A stretch of DNA of 45,585 bases. Origin: Pectobacterium brasiliense (GTDB lineage Bacteria; Pseudomonadota; Gammaproteobacteria; Enterobacterales; Enterobacteriaceae). The stretch lies in the NCBI RefSeq assembly GCF_013449685.1, contig NZ_JACDSF010000019.1, positions 14,034 to 59,618 of the forward strand, read 5' to 3'. The notes under the pieces were generated by a model. It saw nothing but the letters and a program-made list of their open reading frames with translations. It was not told the DNA's origin and did not search any database. Position numbers and translations under genes: made by a program. Positions within the stretch are counted from its first letter, which is position 1. Each line of letters opens with the position of its first letter. This document shows, one piece after another, positions 27,454-38,585 of this stretch.

Positions 27454-28851
27454 ATGAGTCGACTACAGAACGAAATTAACTCTCTGGTCAATCGCGGCGT
27501 GGATCGCCACCTGCGGATTGCCGTCACTGGGTTGAGCCGCAGTGGCAAAACCGCGTTTATCACCGCGTTCGTCAATCAATTATTGAATACCCACAGCGGT
27601 GCGCATTTGCCGATGTTTTCTCCCGTGCGCGAAGAGCGTTTGCTGGGGGGGAAGCGTGTGCCGCAGCGCGATCTGGGCGTGCCGCGTTTTGCTTATGATG
27701 AAGGCATGGCCGCGCTGTATGGTTCGCCGCCGGCTTGGCCAACGCCGACGCGCGGCGTGAGTGAGATTCGTCTGGCGCTGCGCTATCGCTCTAAGGATTC
27801 CTTGCTGCGTCATTTCAAAGACACCTCGACGCTCTATCTGGAAATTGTCGATTACCCCGGCGAATGGCTGCTAGATCTGCCGCTGCTGGAGCAAACGTAT
27901 TTGAGCTGGTCGCAGCAGATGAGTGGTTTGCTGCAAGGGGCGCGCACCGAGTGGGCCAAACCCTGGCTGGCGTTGTGTGAGAAAGTCGATCCGCTGGCCC
28001 CGGCGGATGAAAACCAGCTTGCCGAGGTGGCGCAGGCTTACACCGACTATCTGCATCGCTGCAAACAGGAAGGGCTGCACTTTATTCAACCGGGGCGATT
28101 TGTGCTGCCGGGCGATCTGGCTGGCGCGCCGGTGCTGCAATTCTTCCCCTGGCCGCAGGTGAATCAGATCGGTGAAGCTAAGCTGGCGCAGGCGGATGAA
28201 AAAACCAACATCGGCATGCTGCGCAAGCGTTTTGACTATTACTGTCAGTCGGTCGTCAAAGGATTTTATAAGGATCACTTTGTACGCTTCGACCGGCAGA
28301 TTGTTCTGGTCGATTGCCTGCAACCGCTCAATAGCGGCATTCATGCGTTTAACGATATGCGGCTGGCGCTCACCCAACTGATGCAAAGTTTTCATTACGG
28401 GAAGCGCACGCTGTTCCGGCGTTTGTTCTCGCCCTGCATCGACAAACTGATGTTTGCGGCGAGTAAAGCGGATCACATTACCGCCGACCAGCACGCCAAT
28501 CTGGTGTCGCTGCTTCAGCAACTGGTGCAGGAAGCGTGGCAGAACGCGGCGTTTGAAGGCATCGACATGCGCTGCGAAGGCATTGCGTCGATCCAGTCAA
28601 CGCAGAGCGGGGTGGTCGATCATCAGGGACAGAAAATTCCGGCGCTGAAAGGGCATCGGCTCAGCGACGGCCAGCCGTTGACGGTCTACCCTGGTGAAGT
28701 GCCTGCGCGTTTACCGGGGGCGGCATTCTGGCAAACGCAGGGCTTCCATTTCGATCAATTTCGTCCGCGAGAAATGACGGTAGACACGCCGTTGCCACAT
28801 ATCCGGTTGGATACAGTCATGGACTTTCTGTTAAAGGATAAATTGCGATGA
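27454..28851 (+). CDS. ycjX: YcjX, DUF463 P-loop protein
   Basis: Nucleotide-binding protein of the DUF463 family, 465 aa, part of the heat- and envelope-stress-linked ycjXF pair. Walker A is GLSRSGKT near residue 25. Family blocks such as [20 protein letters not shown] and [16 protein letters not shown] are present. The start is uncertain: [15 protein letters not shown] at 27454 aligns with the E. coli start but is 14 nt after AAGGAG, while the ATG at 27442 is only 2 nt after it. The function is unknown in detail; structures show a GTPase-like fold. Confidence 0.92.
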
Positions 28852-29891
28852 ACGAGCCACTGAAACCCCGCGTCACGTTCGATGACGTTTCACCGCAAGA
28901 GCCACAGCCGCAACTACGTGCCGGGTTAGCATTTGACGAGCAGAGCTGCACACCATTTTCCCCGATCAGCCGTGAAGAAGAAGTACCGGAAGAAGGTGCG
29001 GCGGAAGAAGCGATTAGCGCGGCGCTGCGTCCTAAGCGCAGCCTGTGGCGGCGTATGGTGATGGCGGGAATTGGGCTGTTTGGTGTTAGCGCGCTGGCAC
29101 AGGGCGTGCAGTCACTGCATAACGCCTGGGTACAGCATGACTGGATCGCGCTGGGCGGCATTACCGCAGGCAGCCTGATTGTGGCAGCGGGCGTCGGTTC
29201 GCTGGCTGTCGAGTGGCGACGCCTCTACCGCTTGCGGGAACGGGCGGAAGAGCGCGACGTGGCTCGCGAGCTGTTACATAGCCACGGCGTGGGGCGCGGG
29301 CGCGAATTCTGTGAAAAGTTGGCACGTCAGGCAGGGCTGGATAGCGGCCATCCGGCGATACAGCGCTGGCAGGCTTCGCTCCATGAAACCCACAATGACC
29401 GCGAAGTGCTGGAGCTTTATGCGCGTCTGGTTCAGCCCGTCCTGGACACGCAGGCGCGGCGTGAAATCAGCCGATCGGCGGCGGAATCCACCTTGATGAT
29501 TGCCGTCAGCCCGCTGGCGCTGGTGGATATGGCCTTTATCGCCTGGCGCAACCTGCGCCTGATTAACCGTATTGCCGCGCTGTACGGCATCGAACTCGGC
29601 TATTTCAGCCGCATTCGCCTGTTTCGGCTGGTGCTGGTCAATATCGCGTTTGCTGGCGCATCGGAGCTGGTGCGGGAAATTGGCATGGATTGGATGTCAC
29701 AGGATCTGGCCGCACGTCTATCAACTCGTGCTGCGCAGGGTATTGGTGCTGGGCTGCTGACCGCGCGCTTGGGTATCAAAGCGATGGAACTGTGCCGCCC
29801 GTTGCCGTGGCTGGATGACAAACCACGCCTCGGCGATTTCCGCCGCGAACTGATTGGTCAGATAAAAGAAACGCTGCAAAAAGGGCGTTAG
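28848..29891 (+). CDS. ycjF: YcjF, inner-membrane DUF697 protein
   Basis: Inner-membrane protein of 347 aa from the UPF0283/DUF697 family. A hydrophilic N-terminus is followed by two transmembrane segments ([38 protein letters not shown]), then the conserved block [20 protein letters not shown] and the C-terminal part ending in [14 protein letters not shown]. It overlaps ycjX by four bases (ATGA), so the two are coupled. The role is not established. Confidence 0.93.
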
Positions 29892-29898
29892 AGCTGAA

Positions 29899-29931
29899 AA
29901 CGATGGTACAGGCAGTGTGCCATCGTTGTTT
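29899..29931 (+). terminator. Terminator after ycjF
   Basis: AACGATGG (29899-29906) pairs with CCATCGTT (29920-29927), followed by GTTTTAT. It lies 8 bp past the ycjF stop. Confidence 0.75.
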
Positions 29932-29939
29932 TATCGTGG

Positions 29940-30259
29940 CTTAACATCGCCAGCAAAGGCTTTCATATCATTGCCGGTGAAGCGCCTATGCGGTCAGAAG
30001 TGAGATCGATTCCCCGCTGAGTCACTGGGCGGTTGCGACGACAACCGCAGCGCGCGGCATCGCACCAGATAAGAATCGTATGATGGGCGGGACGTTACCG
30101 ATGAGCGGCGCGGTCAGCGTATTGAAAGTGCCTTACGTCATCGTTCCTCTGGTGAATGCCGACAATAATCAGCATAGTTTTGATGAGAATTTGCGCCTCG
30201 GTAACTATCTGGAAGGTATTCGAACCATTGTGGCGATGGCCACGACGCCGCTGTCTTAA
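29940..30259 (+). pseudogene. Remnant of an M20-family peptidase/amidohydrolase gene
   Basis: Only the C-terminal quarter of an M20 (ArgE/DapE/carboxypeptidase G2-like) metallopeptidase remains. An open frame from 29981 to the stop at 30257-30259 reads SEIDSPLSHWAVATTT..., PDKNRMMGGTLPMSGAV, PYVIVPLVNADNNQHSFDEN and LRLGNYLEGIRT, all typical of the end of that family. Just upstream, a second frame (NIASKGFHIIAGEAPM) continues the similarity, so there is also a frameshift near 29985-29998. The first roughly 380 residues, with most metal ligands, are gone. No start codon or ribosome binding site serves it. It is evidence of gene decay between ycjF and tyrR. Confidence 0.75.
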
Positions 30260-30395
30260 CCCCGTTTCGTCATTGACGTGGAAAAAACGTACAGATGTGT
30301 CAACTTTTGCTGCCACCTTACTTCATCCGGTGCAAACGAAAGGGTATTATCAGTAGTAATAGCCCTATCGTGTCTCTTGAAGAAGGTAGCCGTTG

Positions 30396-31964
30396 ATGCA
30401 TCTGGAAGTGATTTGTGAAGACCGTATTGGTATGGTCCGTGAACTGTTAGATCTACTTGCGTCACGCAATATTGATTTACGCGGCATTGAAATTGCGTCT
30501 ATTGGTCGTATCTACCTCAATTTTGCCACCCTCGATTTTGATGATTTCCGTCTGCTGATGACGGAAATCCGCCGTATTGACAGCGTCAGCGATGTGCGTA
30601 CCGTGGCGTTCATGCCGTCTGAGCGCGAGCATCGGGCGTTGAATGCGCTGTTGGAATCGATGCCTGAACCCGTATTCTCGCTGGATATGAAAGGAAAGCT
30701 GGAGCTGTTTAACCCCGCGGCGCTGGCGCTGTTTGAACAATCGGCAGAGACCATCAGCGACGTGACGATTGGCAGCATGATCCCCGGTTTCAATTTCGCC
30801 AGTTGGCTGGAGAAGAGCAGCGCCGTCGTGGCGGAGCGTGCGGTGATTCGCGGTCAGGATTTCCTGCTGGAAATGACGCCCGTCCGTCTGGAAGATGATG
30901 CCGGTAAAGTGGCAACGGCGGGCGCGCTGGTGATGCTGAAATCGGCCGCTCGCATGGGTCGCCAGTTACAGAACCTCGCCGTGAATGATGAAAATGAGTT
31001 CGATCATATCGTGGCTGTTAGCCCGAAAATGCGTCAGGTGGTGGAGCAGGCGCGCAAATTAGCGATGCTGGACGCGCCATTGCTGATCGTGGGCGATACA
31101 GGGACGGGTAAGGATATGCTGGCGCGTGCCTGCCACCTGCGCGGGCCGCGCGGCAAGAACCCTTTCCTGGCGCTGAACTGTGCGGCCTTACCCGATGATG
31201 TGATGGAGAGCGAGCTGTTCGGCCATGCGCCCGGCGCGTATCTCAACGCGCAGGAAGGCAAAAAAGGTTTCTTCGAACAGGCAAACGGCGGTTCGGTTCT
31301 GCTGGATGAAGTCGGTGAAATGTCGGCGCAGATGCAGACCAAATTGCTGCGTTTCCTGAATGACGGGACATTCCGCCGCGTCGGTGAAGATCATGAAGTC
31401 CATGTCGACGTGCGGGTGATTTGCGCGACTAAGAAAAACCTGTTGGAGCTGGTGCAGCGCGGTGAGTTCCGGGAGGATCTTTATTATCGCCTCAATGTAC
31501 TCTCGCTGACGTTACCGCCGCTGCGTGAGCGCCCAGCGGATATTATGCCGCTGGCCGAGCTTTTTGTGGCGCGCTTTGCCGACGAACAGGGGATTCCTCG
31601 CCCTAAACTGGCCGCAGATGTGGAGCATTTCTTGCCGCAGTATGGCTGGCCGGGTAACGTTAGGCAGTTGCGAAATACTATTTATCGCGCACTGACGCAG
31701 TTGGAAGGCAACGAACTGCATATGCAGGACATCGATCTCCCAGCGTTTTCGATTGATGCGCCGCAAGATGAAACCTTGCTTGATGGTTCGCTGGATGACA
31801 TCAACAAACGTTTCGAGCGTTCCGTGCTGACCCGCCTTTATCAATCTTATCCAAGCACACGCAAACTGGCGAAACGGTTAGGCGTATCGCACACGGCGAT
31901 AGCCAACAAACTGCGGGAATATGGACTCAGCCAACGCAAATCGGCTGGGGATGACGAGGAATAA
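30396..31964 (+). CDS. tyrR: Aromatic amino acid regulator TyrR
   Basis: TyrR (522 aa) controls aromatic amino acid biosynthesis and transport with Tyr, Phe or Trp as ligands. Order: ACT domain 1-75 (MHLEVICEDRIGMVRELLD), PAS about 80-190, AAA+ about 205-430 with Walker A GDTGTGKD and FLNDGTFRRVGEDHEVHVDV, then a C-terminal helix-turn-helix (TRKLAKRLGVSHTAIANKLREYGL). Where sigma54 activators have GAFTGA, this protein reads GAYLNA, so it probably works with sigma70 as in E. coli. ATG at 30396 follows AAGG by a usual distance; a TTG one codon earlier is rejected. I did not find a clear TyrR box in its leader. Confidence 0.95.
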   Translation: MHLEVICEDRIGMVRELLDLLASRNIDLRGIEIASIGRIYLNFATLDFDDFRLLMTEIRRIDSVSDVRTVAFMPSEREHRALNALLESMPEPVFSLDMKGKLELFNPAALALFEQSAETISDVTIGSMIPGFNFASWLEKSSAVVAERAVIRGQDFLLEMTPVRLEDDAGKVATAGALVMLKSAARMGRQLQNLAVNDENEFDHIVAVSPKMRQVVEQARKLAMLDAPLLIVGDTGTGKDMLARACHLRGPRGKNPFLALNCAALPDDVMESELFGHAPGAYLNAQEGKKGFFEQANGGSVLLDEVGEMSAQMQTKLLRFLNDGTFRRVGEDHEVHVDVRVICATKKNLLELVQRGEFREDLYYRLNVLSLTLPPLRERPADIMPLAELFVARFADEQGIPRPKLAADVEHFLPQYGWPGNVRQLRNTIYRALTQLEGNELHMQDIDLPAFSIDAPQDETLLDGSLDDINKRFERSVLTRLYQSYPSTRKLAKRLGVSHTAIANKLREYGLSQRKSAGDDEE

Positions 31965-32016
31965 CAGTAGCGTTTGGTCTACGCATTGTAGGGAATAATT
32001 AATCAAAGGAGTGATT

Positions 32017-34134
32017 ATGGATCAAGAACAGGCTCGACAACTGCTACAGACGGCATTGGCTAACCCCGCCGCACAGTTTCGTGACGGGCAGTGGGAAGCG
32101 ATTGACGCGCTGGTTAACCGCCAGCAGAAATTACTGGTAGTACAGCGTACTGGCTGGGGAAAGAGTTCGGTCTATTTCATCAGTACGAAAATTTTCCGCG
32201 ATCGCGGCATGGGGCCCACTATCATTGTGTCGCCTCTGTTGGCGCTGATGCGTAACCAGATAGATTCTGCCGGGCGATTAGGGATTGTGGCGGAAACGCT
32301 GAATTCTACTAACAAGAGTGAATGGGAAAATGTCACACAGCGCGTGCTCCGGAATCAAGTGGATTGCTTGCTGATCTCTCCAGAGCGTCTGGCGAATGAT
32401 TCATTCGTTGAAACGGTATTGCAGCCTATTGCCGACCATATTGCCCTGATGGTGATTGACGAGGCACACTGTATTTCGGATTGGGGGCATGACTTTCGAC
32501 CGGACTATCGGCGCATTGTGAATATTCTTCGCCAACTGCCGGCTAATACCCCCGTACTGGGTACGACAGCCACGGCCAATAATCGCGTGGTTGAGGATAT
32601 TCAGGCTCAACTAGGTAATATTCGCATTCAGCGTGGTTCACTCATTCGTGAAAGCTTGTCGTTACAGACGATGAGATTACCCGACCAATCATCGCGTCTT
32701 GCATGGCTGGTACAGGCGATTCCAACCCTACAAGGGACCGGAATTGTTTATGTACTGACGCAGCGCGATGCGGAGATGGTTTCTCGCTGGCTCAATCAAT
32801 CGGGTATCGTCGCACGGCCTTATTACAGCGGTGTAACGCATGACGATTTTATGACGTCGGCAGGAAAAGCTGATTCAGATGGGTATCGCCAACACCTTGA
32901 ATCATTGCTGCTTAATAACCAGATTAAGGTGCTCGTGGCGACGACGGCGCTCGGCATGGGATACGATAAACCCGATCTAGGTTTTGTGATTCATTATCAG
33001 ATGCCAGGATCGATTGTTGCGTATTACCAGCAGGTGGGGCGTGCCGGACGCGGTATCGAGCGAGCTGTCGGTATCCTGATGTCTGGCGTTGAAGATAGAG
33101 AGATTCACGAATTTTTCAGGGGATCGGCTTTTCCTGCGGAGACGCAAGTGACTGAGATTTTGCAGGCGCTCGCAAATGCGGATGGTCTGACATTGCGAGA
33201 AATTGAAGAACAAACCAACCTGCGTTATGGGCAGATCGAGAAAGTGTTGAAATTTCTCAGCGTCGATAGCCCCGCACCCGTGATAAAAATTGACCAGAAA
33301 TGGCGTAGGACGCCTATCCCTTATGCGATGGATCGTAGTCGCATTGCTCATCTGACTGGGCAACGAGAACGGGAATGGCAGGAGATGCAGGCTTATCTGG
33401 CAGAGACGAGTTGCAAGATGACATTTTTGCGTCACGCACTGGATGACCGAGATACGACGCCGTGTGGTCAGTGTACTTCCTGCCTTGGACGTCCGGTGAT
33501 CGCTATTCCGCTTAAGGCTGAGCTTATTCATCGGGCAGGAATGTTTCTCAAACAGGCTGAAACTGTTATTCGACCAAACATACAGGTCGCCGCTAATGCT
33601 TTTATTAAATACAGTTTCCGTGGAAATCTGGCGCAAAACTTACGTACTCAAGAAGGGCGCGTCTTGTCCCGTTGGGGAGACGCAGGATGGGGACGGAAGG
33701 TGGCAGACAATAAATATGCAGGCCATTTTAGTGACGAATTGGTTGCTGCGATGGCGGAGATGATCCAACAACGCTGGCAGCCTGAACCCGCACCTGAATG
33801 GATCTGTTGTGTGCCTTCACGTAATCACCCTACATTGGTGCCTGATTTTGCTCAGCGCCTGGCTAAACGGTTGAACCTGCCGTTTGTGGATGCTATTCAT
33901 AAAATACGGGATAACCAGCCACAGAAAGGTCAGCAAAATCGCTTCCACCAGTGCCGTAATCTGGATGGTGCGTTTGCCGTCATCTCCTCGATACCAAAAG
34001 GTGCTGTGTTGTTGATTGATGATATTGTTGATTCTGGCTGGACGTTGGCGGTGATTGCTGCCTTATTACAACAAGCGGGCAGTGGTTGTGTTTATCCGGC
34101 CGCGCTCGCGTCTGCTTCGGTGAGTGATGCATGA
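32017..34134 (+). CDS. RecQ-type DNA helicase fused to a ComF-like phosphoribosyltransferase
   Basis: A 705-residue fusion. The RecQ part (about 1-500) has Walker A GWGKSS at 46-51, DEAH at 148-151 (VIDEAHCISDWGHDF), ATTALGMGYDKPD, and the motif VI region QQVGRAGRG. The RecQ zinc site is exact: C466-x16-C483-x2-C486-x2-C489. The HRDC domain is missing. In its place a ComFC-type PRTase (about 585-700) has CVPSRNHP, KGQQNRFHQCRNLDGAF (like the ComF Q...R..N..aF block) and the PRPP loop LLIDDIVDSGWTL. The ATG is set by AAAGGAG 5 nt upstream. Its stop overlaps the dprA-like start by four bases. It is inserted between tyrR and tpx, which are neighbours in E. coli. It is not the housekeeping recQ (different architecture and locus). 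The role is unknown; DNA processing or defence is likely. Confidence 0.88.
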   Translation: MDQEQARQLLQTALANPAAQFRDGQWEAIDALVNRQQKLLVVQRTGWGKSSVYFISTKIFRDRGMGPTIIVSPLLALMRNQIDSAGRLGIVAETLNSTNKSEWENVTQRVLRNQVDCLLISPERLANDSFVETVLQPIADHIALMVIDEAHCISDWGHDFRPDYRRIVNILRQLPANTPVLGTTATANNRVVEDIQAQLGNIRIQRGSLIRESLSLQTMRLPDQSSRLAWLVQAIPTLQGTGIVYVLTQRDAEMVSRWLNQSGIVARPYYSGVTHDDFMTSAGKADSDGYRQHLESLLLNNQIKVLVATTALGMGYDKPDLGFVIHYQMPGSIVAYYQQVGRAGRGIERAVGILMSGVEDREIHEFFRGSAFPAETQVTEILQALANADGLTLREIEEQTNLRYGQIEKVLKFLSVDSPAPVIKIDQKWRRTPIPYAMDRSRIAHLTGQREREWQEMQAYLAETSCKMTFLRHALDDRDTTPCGQCTSCLGRPVIAIPLKAELIHRAGMFLKQAETVIRPNIQVAANAFIKYSFRGNLAQNLRTQEGRVLSRWGDAGWGRKVADNKYAGHFSDELVAAMAEMIQQRWQPEPAPEWICCVPSRNHPTLVPDFAQRLAKRLNLPFVDAIHKIRDNQPQKGQQNRFHQCRNLDGAFAVISSIPKGAVLLIDDIVDSGWTLAVIAALLQQAGSGCVYPAALASASVSDA

Positions 34135-35438
34135 ATTTATCTCCCATGGCACAAGCGACACTGCTTTTGACCTGTTATTTCAGCAAAGCAAGTGCTGACG
34201 ATCTCAAACCACTCACTAATACGGAGTGGGGGCGCTTTGCAATGTGGTTAAAAGAAAAATCACTGAGCCCTGCGGATCTCCTTGTGCCTGACCCTGCGGC
34301 ACTGCTCAGTGGTTGGCATGATTCACGGGTGAGCGTCGCTCGGATTGTGCAACTGTTGAACCGAGGGCATAGTTTGGCACTCGCGATTGAAAAGTGGCAA
34401 AGAGCGGGATTATGGGTCGTTACGCGTTCGGATTATGATTATCCCAAGCGTTTAAAGCAGCGGCTGAAAAGTGATTCTCCTCCCGTATTATTTGGCTGTG
34501 GTAATCGTGCGCTCTTAAATTCCAGAGGGCTGGCTGTGGTCGGTTCGCGCAATGCTAATGACATGGATTTATCGTTTACGCATCAGGTTGGTATGCAAGC
34601 TGCCGCTGACGATATTGCCATTGTTTCTGGTGGAGCCAGAGGCGTGGATGAAACGGCGATGCTGGGTGCTATGAGTCAGGGGGGCGTTGTCATCGGCGTA
34701 ATGGCCGATAGCTTGCTTAAAGCGAGTACGAGTACGAAATGGCGTAAAGGATTGATGGAAGGGCGAGCGGTGTTGGTGTCTCCTTTCTATCCTGAAGCGG
34801 GTTTCAGTACGGGCAATGCAATGGCGCGGAATAAATACATTTATTGTCTTGCCGAAAGTGCTTTAGTCGTTCACTCAGGTAAAAAGGGGGGGACGTTCAG
34901 CGGCGCCCAGGAAAACCTGAAGAAAGGCTGGGTACCGCTGTGGATAAAGCCAACAGACGAAGCGTCTGCTGGTAATGCGGAGTTGGTCGCCGCAGGTGGA
35001 CGCTGGTGTGATATGGATTGGCGATCTCTGAATATTGCTAAATTACTCGATCAGGTTAGCCTTGTATCGACGTCCGTTGCCATGGGAGAACAAGGTAGCC
35101 TGTGTTTGCGCGAAGAGCCGCAAACGACACTACCCGAGCAGCCTGACTCGCAAAAAACATGTGCCGAAAATACTGCTGCGACGATTGAAGATAGCCTTAC
35201 TACAGCAGAGGGAATCAATGTTATTAAGAGTGAATCCATTGATTTTTATACGTTGTTTTTACAGGAGCTCAATCGGCTGGCGGTAGAGGCAGTCAGTCTG
35301 GAGGAACTCATTAGCTTCACTGCGCTACACAAATCGCAGATTGCCGTTTGGTTACAGCGGGCTGTTGATGAGGGGGCTATTAAAAAACACAACCGACCGG
35401 TTCGTTATCAATGGATCGCTAATTCCCATCCTTCTTAA
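34131..35438 (+). CDS. DprA/Smf-like Rossmann protein with C-terminal winged helix
   Basis: A 435-residue DprA-family protein. The Rossmann core runs about 110-300: PPVLFGCGNRALLNSRGLAV, VVGSRNA, then IVSGGARGVDETA, the DprA Gly-rich loop, and ARNKYIYCLAESALVVHSGKKGGT. A variable acidic linker follows, then a winged helix (SLEELISFTALHKSQIAVWL...EGAIKK) as in true DprA. DprA loads RecA on single-stranded DNA in transformation; paralogues in mobile regions belong to the wider SLOG superfamily tied to nucleotide signalling and conflict. It overlaps the upstream helicase-PRTase gene by four bases and is followed by a strong terminator, so the two form a closed unit. It is not the housekeeping dprA, judging from locus and divergence. 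Confidence 0.88.
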   Translation: MNLSPMAQATLLLTCYFSKASADDLKPLTNTEWGRFAMWLKEKSLSPADLLVPDPAALLSGWHDSRVSVARIVQLLNRGHSLALAIEKWQRAGLWVVTRSDYDYPKRLKQRLKSDSPPVLFGCGNRALLNSRGLAVVGSRNANDMDLSFTHQVGMQAAADDIAIVSGGARGVDETAMLGAMSQGGVVIGVMADSLLKASTSTKWRKGLMEGRAVLVSPFYPEAGFSTGNAMARNKYIYCLAESALVVHSGKKGGTFSGAQENLKKGWVPLWIKPTDEASAGNAELVAAGGRWCDMDWRSLNIAKLLDQVSLVSTSVAMGEQGSLCLREEPQTTLPEQPDSQKTCAENTAATIEDSLTTAEGINVIKSESIDFYTLFLQELNRLAVEAVSLEELISFTALHKSQIAVWLQRAVDEGAIKKHNRPVRYQWIANSHPS

Positions 35439-35450
35439 GTCAGGATAACA

Positions 35451-35478
35451 AAACGGCTGCTTGCGCAGCCGTTTTTTA
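35451..35478. terminator. Bidirectional terminator between the dprA-like gene and tpx
   Basis: AAACGGCTGC (35451-35460) pairs with GCAGCCGTTT (35465-35474) around TTGC, followed by more T on plus; A residues flank the minus-strand side. It serves the convergent dprA-like gene and tpx. Confidence 0.9.
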
Positions 35479-35500: not shown

Positions 35501-36004
35501 TTATTTCAGAACAGCCAGTGCAGCATCATAGTCTGGTTCAGTGGTGATCTCGTTCACCAGTTCGCTGTGCAGCACGTTGTCGTTTTCATCCAGAACAACA
35601 ACCGCACGAGCAGTCAGACCTTTCAGCGCGCCATCGGCGATAGCAACGCCATAGTTCTCTTTGAACTCACCGCCACGCAGGGTAGACAGCACAACAACGT
35701 TGTTCAGACCTTCCGCGCCGCAAAAACGGGACTGCGCGAACGGCAGATCGGAAGAGATACACAGAACAACGGTGTTATCCAGCTCGGAACCTAGTTGGTT
35801 GAATTTGCGCACGGACGTGGCACAAACACCGGTATCGATGCTTGGGAAAATGTTCAGGATTTTGCGTTTGCCAGCATAGTTGCTCAGCGGGGTATCGGAC
35901 AGATCTTTAGCCACCAGAGTAAATGCCGGGGCTTTGCTTCCTTTGGCTGGGAATGACCCTGCTACTGGCACAGGATTGCCTTGAAAATGTACGTTCTGTG
36001 ACAT
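35501..36004 (-). CDS. tpx: Thiol peroxidase
   Basis: Tpx (167 aa) is an atypical 2-Cys peroxiredoxin that reduces hydroperoxides with thioredoxin. The peroxidatic Cys61 lies in [11 protein letters not shown] and the resolving Cys95 in SRFCGAEG; a third Cys at 82 is also common. Length and start ([14 protein letters not shown]) match the E. coli protein closely. It is monocistronic, with a terminator just past the stop. Confidence 0.97.
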
Positions 36005-36083
36005 GTTTGCGTCCTTAATTACAGGTGATTAACACGCTGCTCAGTTTAGGGCAACATTAGCAACATTGGTATAAAAATTACGA

Positions 36084-36803
36084 TTAAAATTGCTGGCTTA
36101 GCAATGCCACCATCGCCTTCAGGTAGCATTCGCTGGCAGCATCTGCCGAGATTGGCGGAAGCTCAGCGGTAATGCAATGAAGCGAACGATCGGCGCACCA
36201 GCTTCCGAAAGAGCCTGGCGTGTCGTAACCGATACTCGATACTAACGGCAGTTCGCACCGCTGCGCCAACCAGAGACCGAGTTCGGAATGATGTGGATCT
36301 TCAATACACGCGAGTGGCTCATGAAAAGAGACAACCCAGTGAGGATTAAGTTTCTCAATCAGCGTGCAAAGGGCTTTTGTTTCCGGCTCTGAACCTGCCG
36401 TTTCGCCCGTGGATAGCTCGACATCGCGTTCATCTGCGGCGCTATTCCAGCGGTAGACTGTCTTCCCCGGTTGCCAGTTACTGGCCGGAAAATTGCGATT
36501 GAGATCGACACCGTTAGCGTTGGCACGCAGGCCCAACTGACAGCCATCTGGGTTCACCGCAAGAATCACGTGATGGCGGCGCTGGCCTGAAAAGAGGGTG
36601 CGAAGCGCGCAGGAAAGCGCCACGACTGCTGCGGTTTCATCGCCGTGTGTTCCGGCAATAATCAGCCCGCTCTCTGAGGGAGCTAATTCGGCGGGGAAAT
36701 ACAGCAGCGGCGCGCCCAGCAGCGATTTCCCATACGGTTCGCCCAGCGAAGGTAAATTACCTCGTTGCTGGCGTGCCTGAAGAGGAATGATCGGGTTTTC
36801 CAT
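36084..36803 (-). CDS. mpaA: Murein peptide amidase A
   Basis: MpaA (239 aa) is an M14 zinc carboxypeptidase that removes meso-diaminopimelate from murein tripeptide (L-Ala-gamma-D-Glu-mDap) during cell-wall recycling. Zinc ligands His53 and Glu56 (AGTHGDE) and the later His in VVSFHEP are present, as are LDLNRNFP-type residues (VDLNRNFPASNW). There is no signal peptide, as expected for a cytoplasmic enzyme. It is divergent from mppA, which captures the same peptide. Confidence 0.93.
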   Translation of the reverse strand: MENPIIPLQARQQRGNLPSLGEPYGKSLLGAPLLYFPAELAPSESGLIIAGTHGDETAAVVALSCALRTLFSGQRRHHVILAVNPDGCQLGLRANANGVDLNRNFPASNWQPGKTVYRWNSAADERDVELSTGETAGSEPETKALCTLIEKLNPHWVVSFHEPLACIEDPHHSELGLWLAQRCELPLVSSIGYDTPGSFGSWCADRSLHCITAELPPISADAASECYLKAMVALLSQQF

Positions 36804-36968
36804 GTTGTTGCCCTGTGGTTACCTATGCGTTTCATCATAAAAAAATCGGCCCAGAGACGCAAACGGCGATGCGGGCTGACAAATTGCGGGGGTATCGCTG
36901 GATGATAGCGCTGATTTCTGACTATTATATTCTTCAATCAATTCATTACGCTTTCAGGTCAAATCATC

Positions 36969-38585
36969 ATGCACTATGGATATTCTGCATTTTATGCCGC
37001 GTTGATGGCGGCCATGACGGGCAATGCCGTCGCGGCGCAGGTTCCGGCGGGAACGGTTCTGGCTGAGAAGCAAGAAATCGTCCGCCACATTAAAGATGAA
37101 CCTGCTTCTCTCGATCCGATAAAAGCGGTGGGGTTGCCCGAAGCTCAGGTGGCGCGCGATCTGTTTGAAGGGCTGGTCAATCAGGACGCGAAAGGGAATC
37201 TGGTTCCCGGTGTAGCGCTGCGCTGGCAGACGACCGATAACCGCACATTTATCTTTACCCTACGCGATAATGCTCGCTGGTCTAACGGTGAACCCGTTAC
37301 GGCAAAGGATTTTGTTTACAGCTGGCGTCGTCTGGTCACCCCTGAAAACAGCTCGCCGTTCGCCTGGTTTGCTCGACTGGCGGGAATTCAGAACGCCGAG
37401 CAGATTCTCGCGGGCAAACTGCCCGTCGATCAGCTTGGCGTGACGGCCGTCAATGATCACACGCTGAAAGTGCAGCTCAGCAAGCCTGTACCTTATTTTG
37501 TCAGCCTGACGGCAAATTTCAGCCTGTTTCCGGTGCATCAGGCTACGATAGAAAAATTCGGGAACGACTGGACGAAGCCGGGCAATCTGATTGGCAATGG
37601 CGCGTTTAAGCTGGATCAGCGCGTCGTCAATGAGAAGCTGGTGCTCACGCAGAATCCATATTATTGGGATAACGCCCACACGCGCCTGACAAAGGTGACC
37701 TTTGTGCCGATCAATCAGGAATCGAACGCGACGAAGCGCTACCTGTCTGGGGATATCGACATCACCGAGTCGTTTCCTAAAAACCTGTACCAGAAACTGC
37801 TGAAAGACTTGCCCGGCCAGGTTTATACGCCAGATCAGCTTGGCACCTATTATTACGCGTTTAACACGCAGCGTGCGCCGACCAATGACGTACGAGTGCG
37901 AAAAGCGCTGTCTTACGCCATCGATCGTAAAGTGATTGCGGAAAAAGTATTGGGCACGGGGGAAAAGCCGGCCTGGCACTTTACGCCGGACGTCACCGCG
38001 GGTTTCAAACCGACGGAAAGCCTGTTGCAGCAGTATTCTCAGGATGAGCTGGATGCGCAGGCCAAAGCGCTGATGGCAGCGGCGGGCTATGGTCCAAACA
38101 ATCCTCTGAAATTATCGCTGCTGTACAACACGTCGGAAAGCCACCAGAAGATCGCGATTGCCGTGGCATCCATGTGGAAGAAAACGCTGGGCGTAGACGT
38201 GCGTTTGTCCAACCAAGAGTGGCAAACCTATATCGACAGCCGCAACAGCGGTAATTTTGACGTCGTGCGAGCGTCCTGGGTTGGCGACTACAACGAACCG
38301 TCGACATTCCTTTCGTTGCTGGCGTCGCACCACAGCGGGAATATCGCGCGCTTTAAAAATGCGAATTACGATCGCGTCCTAGATGAAGCGGGTAATCAGA
38401 CTAACCCGCAGACACTGAATGCGGACTACAACCGAGCAGAGCAGATTTTGATGGATGAAGCACCGATTGCGCCGATCTATCAATACACCAACGGACGTTT
38501 GATCAAACCGTGGGTGAAGGGCTATCCGATGACTAACCCGGAAGACGTGGCATACAGCCACATGCTTTACATCGAAAAGCATTAA
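36969..38585 (+). CDS. mppA: Periplasmic murein-tripeptide/oligopeptide-binding protein
   Basis: OppA-like solute-binding protein (538 aa) that passes peptides to OppBCDF; MppA is the murein-tripeptide specialist. A signal peptide is visible (about 1-23, ending GNAVAA). The SBP_bac_5 body begins EIVRHIKDEPASLDPIKAVG and contains WSNGEPVTAKDFVYSWRRL and LIGNGAFKLDQR. Its place beside mpaA supports MppA over OppA. A CAGG element sits a little far upstream of the ATG. The 165-bp gap from mpaA holds both promoters; I did not assign boxes. Confidence 0.9.
   Translation: MHYGYSAFYAALMAAMTGNAVAAQVPAGTVLAEKQEIVRHIKDEPASLDPIKAVGLPEAQVARDLFEGLVNQDAKGNLVPGVALRWQTTDNRTFIFTLRDNARWSNGEPVTAKDFVYSWRRLVTPENSSPFAWFARLAGIQNAEQILAGKLPVDQLGVTAVNDHTLKVQLSKPVPYFVSLTANFSLFPVHQATIEKFGNDWTKPGNLIGNGAFKLDQRVVNEKLVLTQNPYYWDNAHTRLTKVTFVPINQESNATKRYLSGDIDITESFPKNLYQKLLKDLPGQVYTPDQLGTYYYAFNTQRAPTNDVRVRKALSYAIDRKVIAEKVLGTGEKPAWHFTPDVTAGFKPTESLLQQYSQDELDAQAKALMAAAGYGPNNPLKLSLLYNTSESHQKIAIAVASMWKKTLGVDVRLSNQEWQTYIDSRNSGNFDVVRASWVGDYNEPSTFLSLLASHHSGNIARFKNANYDRVLDEAGNQTNPQTLNADYNRAEQILMDEAPIAPIYQYTNGRLIKPWVKGYPMTNPEDVAYSHMLYIEKH

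Follow-up and report, generated by a model that had tools for sequence, protein, structure and literature searches.

A probable PsyrTA (RqlHI) toxin–antitoxin pair at a variable tyrR–tpx junction of Pectobacterium brasiliense

A two-gene insert of Pectobacterium brasiliense is very probably a full-length PsyrTA (RqlHI) module, a judgement from sequence that covers both its identity and its presumed toxin–antitoxin mode of action. The insert lies in a stretch of 45,585 nucleotides, hereafter the window, between two genes that we take to be tyrR, which ends at 31964, and tpx, at 35501–36004 on the minus strand. It contains two genes only, psyrT and psyrA, and the stop of the first overlaps the start of the second as ATGA. 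The G+C content of the unit, 50.5%, differs mildly from the 54.7% of the flanking regions 28848–31964 and 35501–38585. We take the ATG at 32017 as the start of psyrT, giving 705 residues, instead of the upstream GTG at 32011 from which the open reading frame lister begins; AAAGGAG stands just 5′ of this ATG, and residue 1 of the ATG form is where the alignment starts for many relatives among the best 80 of 288. The features of the locus are:

32017..34134 (+), psyrT / rqlH, RecQ-family helicase with a C-terminal phosphoribosyltransferase, putative toxin, 705 residues (PADLOC PsyrT and Pfam)
32149..32169 (+), Walker A motif TGWGKSS containing K49, the residue changed in the K49A mutant of E. 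coli RqlH
32458..32469 (+), DEAH box with D148 as its first residue, the position of the D148A mutant of E. coli RqlH
33412..33483 (+), zinc-site region C466-C483-C486-C489 (alignment)
34021..34032 (+), PRPP loop DIVD, residues 669–672, counterpart of the DIVD 663 mutated in E. coli RqlH
34131..35438 (+), psyrA / rqlI, DprA-like protein, putative antitoxin, 435 residues (PADLOC PsyrA and Pfam DNA_processg_A)
35447..35477 (no strand assigned), terminator hairpin of the tyrR–tpx junction, outside the unit and also found in genomes without it

Both proteins match named PADLOC models nearly from end to end. The PsyrT model (PDLC03928) covers residues 3–704 of 705 at 1038.7 bits and the PsyrA model (PDLC03927) residues 1–428 of 435 at 561.5 bits, with the next-best PADLOC matches far weaker (DpdF, 287 bits; ShosA, 87.7 bits). 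PsyrTA is an already known, named system, and because PADLOC names both genes, the present copy is no new system; the preliminary description, made from the sequence alone, had left the unit without a named system. PsyrTA of P. syringae was reportedly the subject of work by Sberro and colleagues in 2013. Passages of PMC4670107 pair the P. syringae proteins with their orthologues, PsyrT with RqlH and PsyrA with RqlI, and describe PsyrT as toxic in the absence of PsyrA.

In Pfam, PsyrT is composed of DEAD and Helicase_C domains followed by a Pribosyltran domain at residues 611–698 (32.5 bits against a cut-off of 26.3 bits). The RecQ-like helicase core extends to about residue 365, and the cysteines C466, C483, C486 and C489 follow the pattern C-x16-C-x2-C-x2-C. 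RecQ_Zn_bind scores 19.9 bits, under its cut-off of 25 bits. All four cysteines, together with D668, D669, D672 and S673, are invariant in 43 aligned rows (the window and 42 of the best 80 relatives), and K49, D148, E149 and H151 are kept in 79 of 79 rows (the window and 78 of the best 80, two relatives with an internal stop having been left out). The domains and the invariant cysteines bear out the RecQ helicase with an intact zinc site that had been read from the sequence, and the loss of HRDC read along with it agrees with the lack of any Pfam HRDC match at E values up to 0.05. Searched alone against solved structures, the phosphoribosyltransferase part gives weak matches, the best with an E value of 0.094.

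PsyrA carries a DprA domain at residues 89–290 (Pfam DNA_processg_A, 145.1 bits), in keeping with the DprA-like second gene and the ATGA overlap described earlier; a separate winged-helix model from Pfam finds no match in the protein. In an alignment of relatives, conservation is strong except at residues about 276–400 (window 34956–35330), a very poorly conserved stretch that separates the DprA domain from the C-terminal end. Another frame of the same genome, of 376 residues, gives a weak match to the PsyrA model (93.1 bits), and its size and score suggest an ordinary DprA.

Broken copies do occur elsewhere, with a frameshifted rqlH in E. coli RM19259 and an internal stop in 2 of the best 80 PsyrT matches, and the window copy might likewise be a degenerate, non-functional remnant. 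This is scarcely credible for a unit with two open, full-length frames that retains K49 and D148 as well as its zinc cysteines and PRPP-loop residues.

In the competence of Gram-positive bacteria, single-stranded DNA that enters the cell is handled by ComFA, ComFC and DprA. The preliminary description had proposed that the present operon rebuilds this trio, with a helicase, a phosphoribosyltransferase and DprA intercepting incoming single-stranded DNA. Both proteins do resemble competence proteins in their domains, a resemblance that is not new, since the authors of the 2015 RqlHI paper already raised it (PMC4670107, in the parts that discuss competence). We nevertheless consider competence-like DNA handling very improbable. 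The best PADLOC match is PsyrTA, and neither protein reaches the cut-off of its competence subfamily: the ComF model TIGR00201 scores 22.5 bits against 233.55, so that the Pribosyltran match supports a phosphoribosyltransferase for which 'ComFC-type' is a loose label, and the DprA equivalog TIGR00732 scores 96.8 bits against 191.15. The portions of PMC4670107 that concern E. coli further report that loss of RqlI is harmful through RqlH and that no transformation was detected in the isolates; the published pair works there as a toxin–antitoxin system and not by intercepting single-stranded DNA from outside.

The same paper describes slower growth, SOS induction and filamentation in E. coli producing RqlH alone, and a toxicity that requires the phosphoribosyltransferase domain and its PRPP pocket and for which the isolated domain is insufficient; RqlI binds RqlH and negates this toxicity (PMC4670107). 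Its authors also remark on features unlike those of usual toxin–antitoxin systems, and according to the paper E. coli K-12 MG1655 has neither gene. For a related pair, passages of a review (PMC12593503) present ShosT as a phosphoribosyltransferase and pyrophosphatase that disturbs purine metabolism, and ShosA as a DNA-binding protein. In our reading PsyrT couples a RecQ-like motor and its zinc site to a phosphoribosyltransferase that binds PRPP. By extension from the E. coli relative, this phosphoribosyltransferase, when unrestrained, would damage DNA metabolism, with SOS induction and filamentation. PsyrA would bind and restrain PsyrT, and the helicase activity, which in the E. coli relative seems to curb the phosphoribosyltransferase too, may do the same here. 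By analogy with ShosT, the chemistry would most likely combine phosphoribosyltransferase and pyrophosphatase action and upset the purine nucleotide pool. As to use, we lean towards abortive-infection defence, in which infection would disturb PsyrA, or the DNA watched by PsyrA, and so free PsyrT.

The view of PsyrTA as an anti-phage system is said to go back to Millman 2022, and for the window copy such activity, and with it the possible defence role suggested earlier, is plausible by analogy with its family. The published evidence is mixed. Rousset et al. 2022, in passages of PMC9122126, report a DprA and phosphoribosyltransferase system that protected against T7 and lambda, and connect it to shosTA, syrTA and rqlHI. 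Part of PMC10855318 counts PsyrTA among the abortive-infection systems, with reference to Millman 2022 and Sberro 2013, and places 81.8% of PsyrTA carriers (11 strains) among the phage-resistant strains. By contrast, in the relevant passages of PMC12409345, deletion of PsyrTA from E. coli NILS69 left infection by 10 phages unchanged, and the NILS69 pair, cloned in a K-12 strain susceptible to 15 phages, gave no detectable protection and caused a growth defect.

A scan of species genomes found 288 stretches encoding a relative, and the comparison covers the best 80. In 77 of them psyrT is immediately followed by psyrA, and in the other three the PsyrT match reaches to 1–2 bases from the contig end, which upholds the reading of the two genes as one unit. 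The best 80 loci represent the closest relatives, and strains with RqlH alone fall outside this sample; the survey in PMC4670107, in the part that gives its counts, finds RqlH without RqlI in 55.3% of strains. Loose default thresholds also match control genomes (14 of 14 with the PsyrT model, 11 of 14 with the PsyrA model), and only high scores therefore count. Within the genus, the PsyrA model matches all 25 genomes at an E value of 0.001 or better and exceeds 540 bits in 4 of them, the next-best match scoring 95.9 bits, as expected of an ordinary DprA. In the family sample, 7 of 149 genomes, the own genome included, pass an E value of 1e-80, against 0 of 14 controls.

DNA-level matches of any length, short ones included, occur in 1655 of the 5426 complete genomes of E. 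coli; in 29 of the 5426 a single place spans at least 80% of the unit. Three E. coli genomes were viewed, with the pair at gntU–yhgN in two and in an integrase-bearing tRNA-Thr island in one. At the RM19259 locus, where the frameshift of rqlH is an annotation, the DprA-type partner is still open. None of the 27 matching records in a phage collection covers 80% of PsyrT, and 3 of the 113 matching records in a plasmid collection cover at least 80% of PsyrA. In flanks of at most 6 kb per side, the best 80 relatives have no tpx or mpaA match and no tyrR match above 55% identity.

Comparison of the tyrR–tpx junction among relatives, as had been proposed earlier, indicates that the pair is accessory. 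The junction holds PsyrTA in 4 of the 25 genus genomes (G000, G001, G003 and G016), is empty in 10 and carries other cargo in 11; all four carriers have the pair between tyrR and tpx. The empty junctions, with 49–67 bases between the two genes, corroborate the earlier reading that the unit is an insertion. They also bear on whether the pair serves host DNA maintenance, as in the model of Russell and Mulvey, in which PsyrA would resolve modified nucleotides made by PsyrT and toxicity would be a by-product of imbalance. This model shares the identity of the pair with the toxin–antitoxin reading and differs from it in purpose. It draws on the DNA-stress phenotypes and direct interaction of the E. 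coli proteins and on the many bacteria with RqlH and no RqlI (PMC4670107, passages on both), and the study that saw no phage protection (PMC12409345, in part) also fits it. Patchy presence and clean empty sites suit a housekeeping role poorly, and the E. coli double mutant was found without fitness loss in the account given by PMC4670107; we therefore regard a maintenance role as unlikely, and keep to a toxin–antitoxin module.

A slightly variable hairpin, AACAAAACGGCTGC...GCAGCCGTTTT, directly follows tyrR in every one of the 10 empty sites; at PsyrTA loci it is present on the tpx side only. Because near-identical hairpins occur in all 10 empty sites, the terminator belongs to the tyrR–tpx junction and not to the unit; the strong terminator that the preliminary description saw closing the unit does exist, but as a part of the junction. 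It is not a landing site repeated across the genome either, since the hairpin at 35447–35475 has one location in the own genome, matched on both strands with up to 2 mismatches.

The other cargo is mostly of one kind. In 10 of the 11 genomes (loci L146–L155, assigned by eye) it consists of an RTX-repeat protein of about 704–706 residues and a protein of about 260 residues, or parts of these. In L152 (9307–12236), the large protein has one RTX calcium-binding repeat match and its neighbour of about 260 residues has no Pfam match; neither protein of this L152 pair has a PADLOC match. One or two copies of the protein of about 260 residues are seen by eye, with shortened copies in several genomes. 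The junction terminator is complete on both sides of this cargo in 9 of the 10 genomes, and in the tenth (G004) half of it stands at each end. There, at locus L147, two identical frames of 436 residues lie at the ends of the insert, each beside a half hairpin; by eye they look like IS transposases. The remaining genome (G013, locus L156) has a 5.9-kb insert with a six-gene operon that, again by eye, looks like one for lipid or phospholipid synthesis.

The closest tyrR among the 16 genomes compared, at 98.9% identity, belongs to G008, whose junction is empty, and gain or loss of the pair would thus be recent when set against the divergence of tyrR. Compared with the three other carriers, the window shows protein identities of 96.8–98.5% for tyrR, 92.1–94.6% for PsyrT and 83.5–86.4% for PsyrA, so that the pair diverges more than its flank, and PsyrA most of all. 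A tentative reading, which we consider less likely than not, is that the tyrR–tpx junction is a small cargo slot and its terminator hairpin a landing or exchange point, where PsyrTA, the RTX-repeat pair and the lipid-type operon might replace one another, mostly without a recombinase gene of their own, perhaps via recombination within conserved flanking sequence or between the copies of the terminator on either side of the RTX cargo. The earlier judgement that the unit is 'probably mobile' fits its patchy presence in the genus, but the insert holds just two genes. In sum, the unit, its domains, its accessory status and a possible defence role stand from the preliminary description, whereas the competence trio and the unnamed system find no support. 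Literature searches, with thin coverage of subscription journals, found nothing on the Pectobacterium tyrR–tpx junction, and a search for PsyrTA with Pectobacterium gave a match that concerned Providencia only. A clean PsyrTA instance with empty-site relatives in the same genus should be useful for testing how PsyrTA acts.

Among known systems, canonical RecQ, DpdF and ShosTA each share a part with the window pair. PsyrT passes the broad RecQ family cut-off (TIGR00614, 235.8 against 219.8 bits) and differs from RecQ in its C-terminal phosphoribosyltransferase and absent HRDC match; canonical RecQ was rejected, since TIGR01389 scores 270.5 bits against a cut-off of 640.2. DpdF of the Dpd system resembles PsyrT at the level of the helicase, up to the PADLOC score given above, and was rejected at 136.2 bits for NCBIfam DpdF against an equivalog cut-off of 550 bits. 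ShosTA likewise pairs a phosphoribosyltransferase toxin with a DprA-like antitoxin, and the solved ShosA 9vzo matches PsyrA residues 86–257. The PADLOC ShosT model, of 237 positions, matches only the phosphoribosyltransferase part of PsyrT (residues 586–698, 23.1 bits) and so lacks the helicase part, whereas PsyrT is a helicase fusion of 705 residues; ShosTA proper, with its stand-alone phosphoribosyltransferase toxin, was rejected because PsyrT includes the helicase.

RqlH–RqlI of E. coli F11, in the parts of PMC4670107 that describe it, has the same domains, gene order and mutated positions, with K49 and D148 bearing the same numbers; the DIVD of the PRPP loop starts at 669 in the window and at 663 in E. 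coli RqlH. Identities to the window come from two E. coli strains other than F11, whose pairs share its gene order: SCU-102 (75.1% for PsyrT, 61.7% for PsyrA) and A30 (63.6% and 52.9%). The A30 PsyrT has 698 residues, with GKS at 48, DEAH at 148 and DIVD at 663, which fits the 698-residue RqlH and its K49, D148 and D663 mutants in the published description (PMC4670107, in part). In the three E. coli genomes viewed, RqlHI occupies different chromosomal sites, gntU–yhgN or the tRNA-Thr island, as opposed to tyrR–tpx in the window. With PsyrTA of P. syringae, as modelled in PADLOC, the window pair shares a near end-to-end match of both proteins and a toxin gene that comes first, and the differences found are those of sequence divergence alone.
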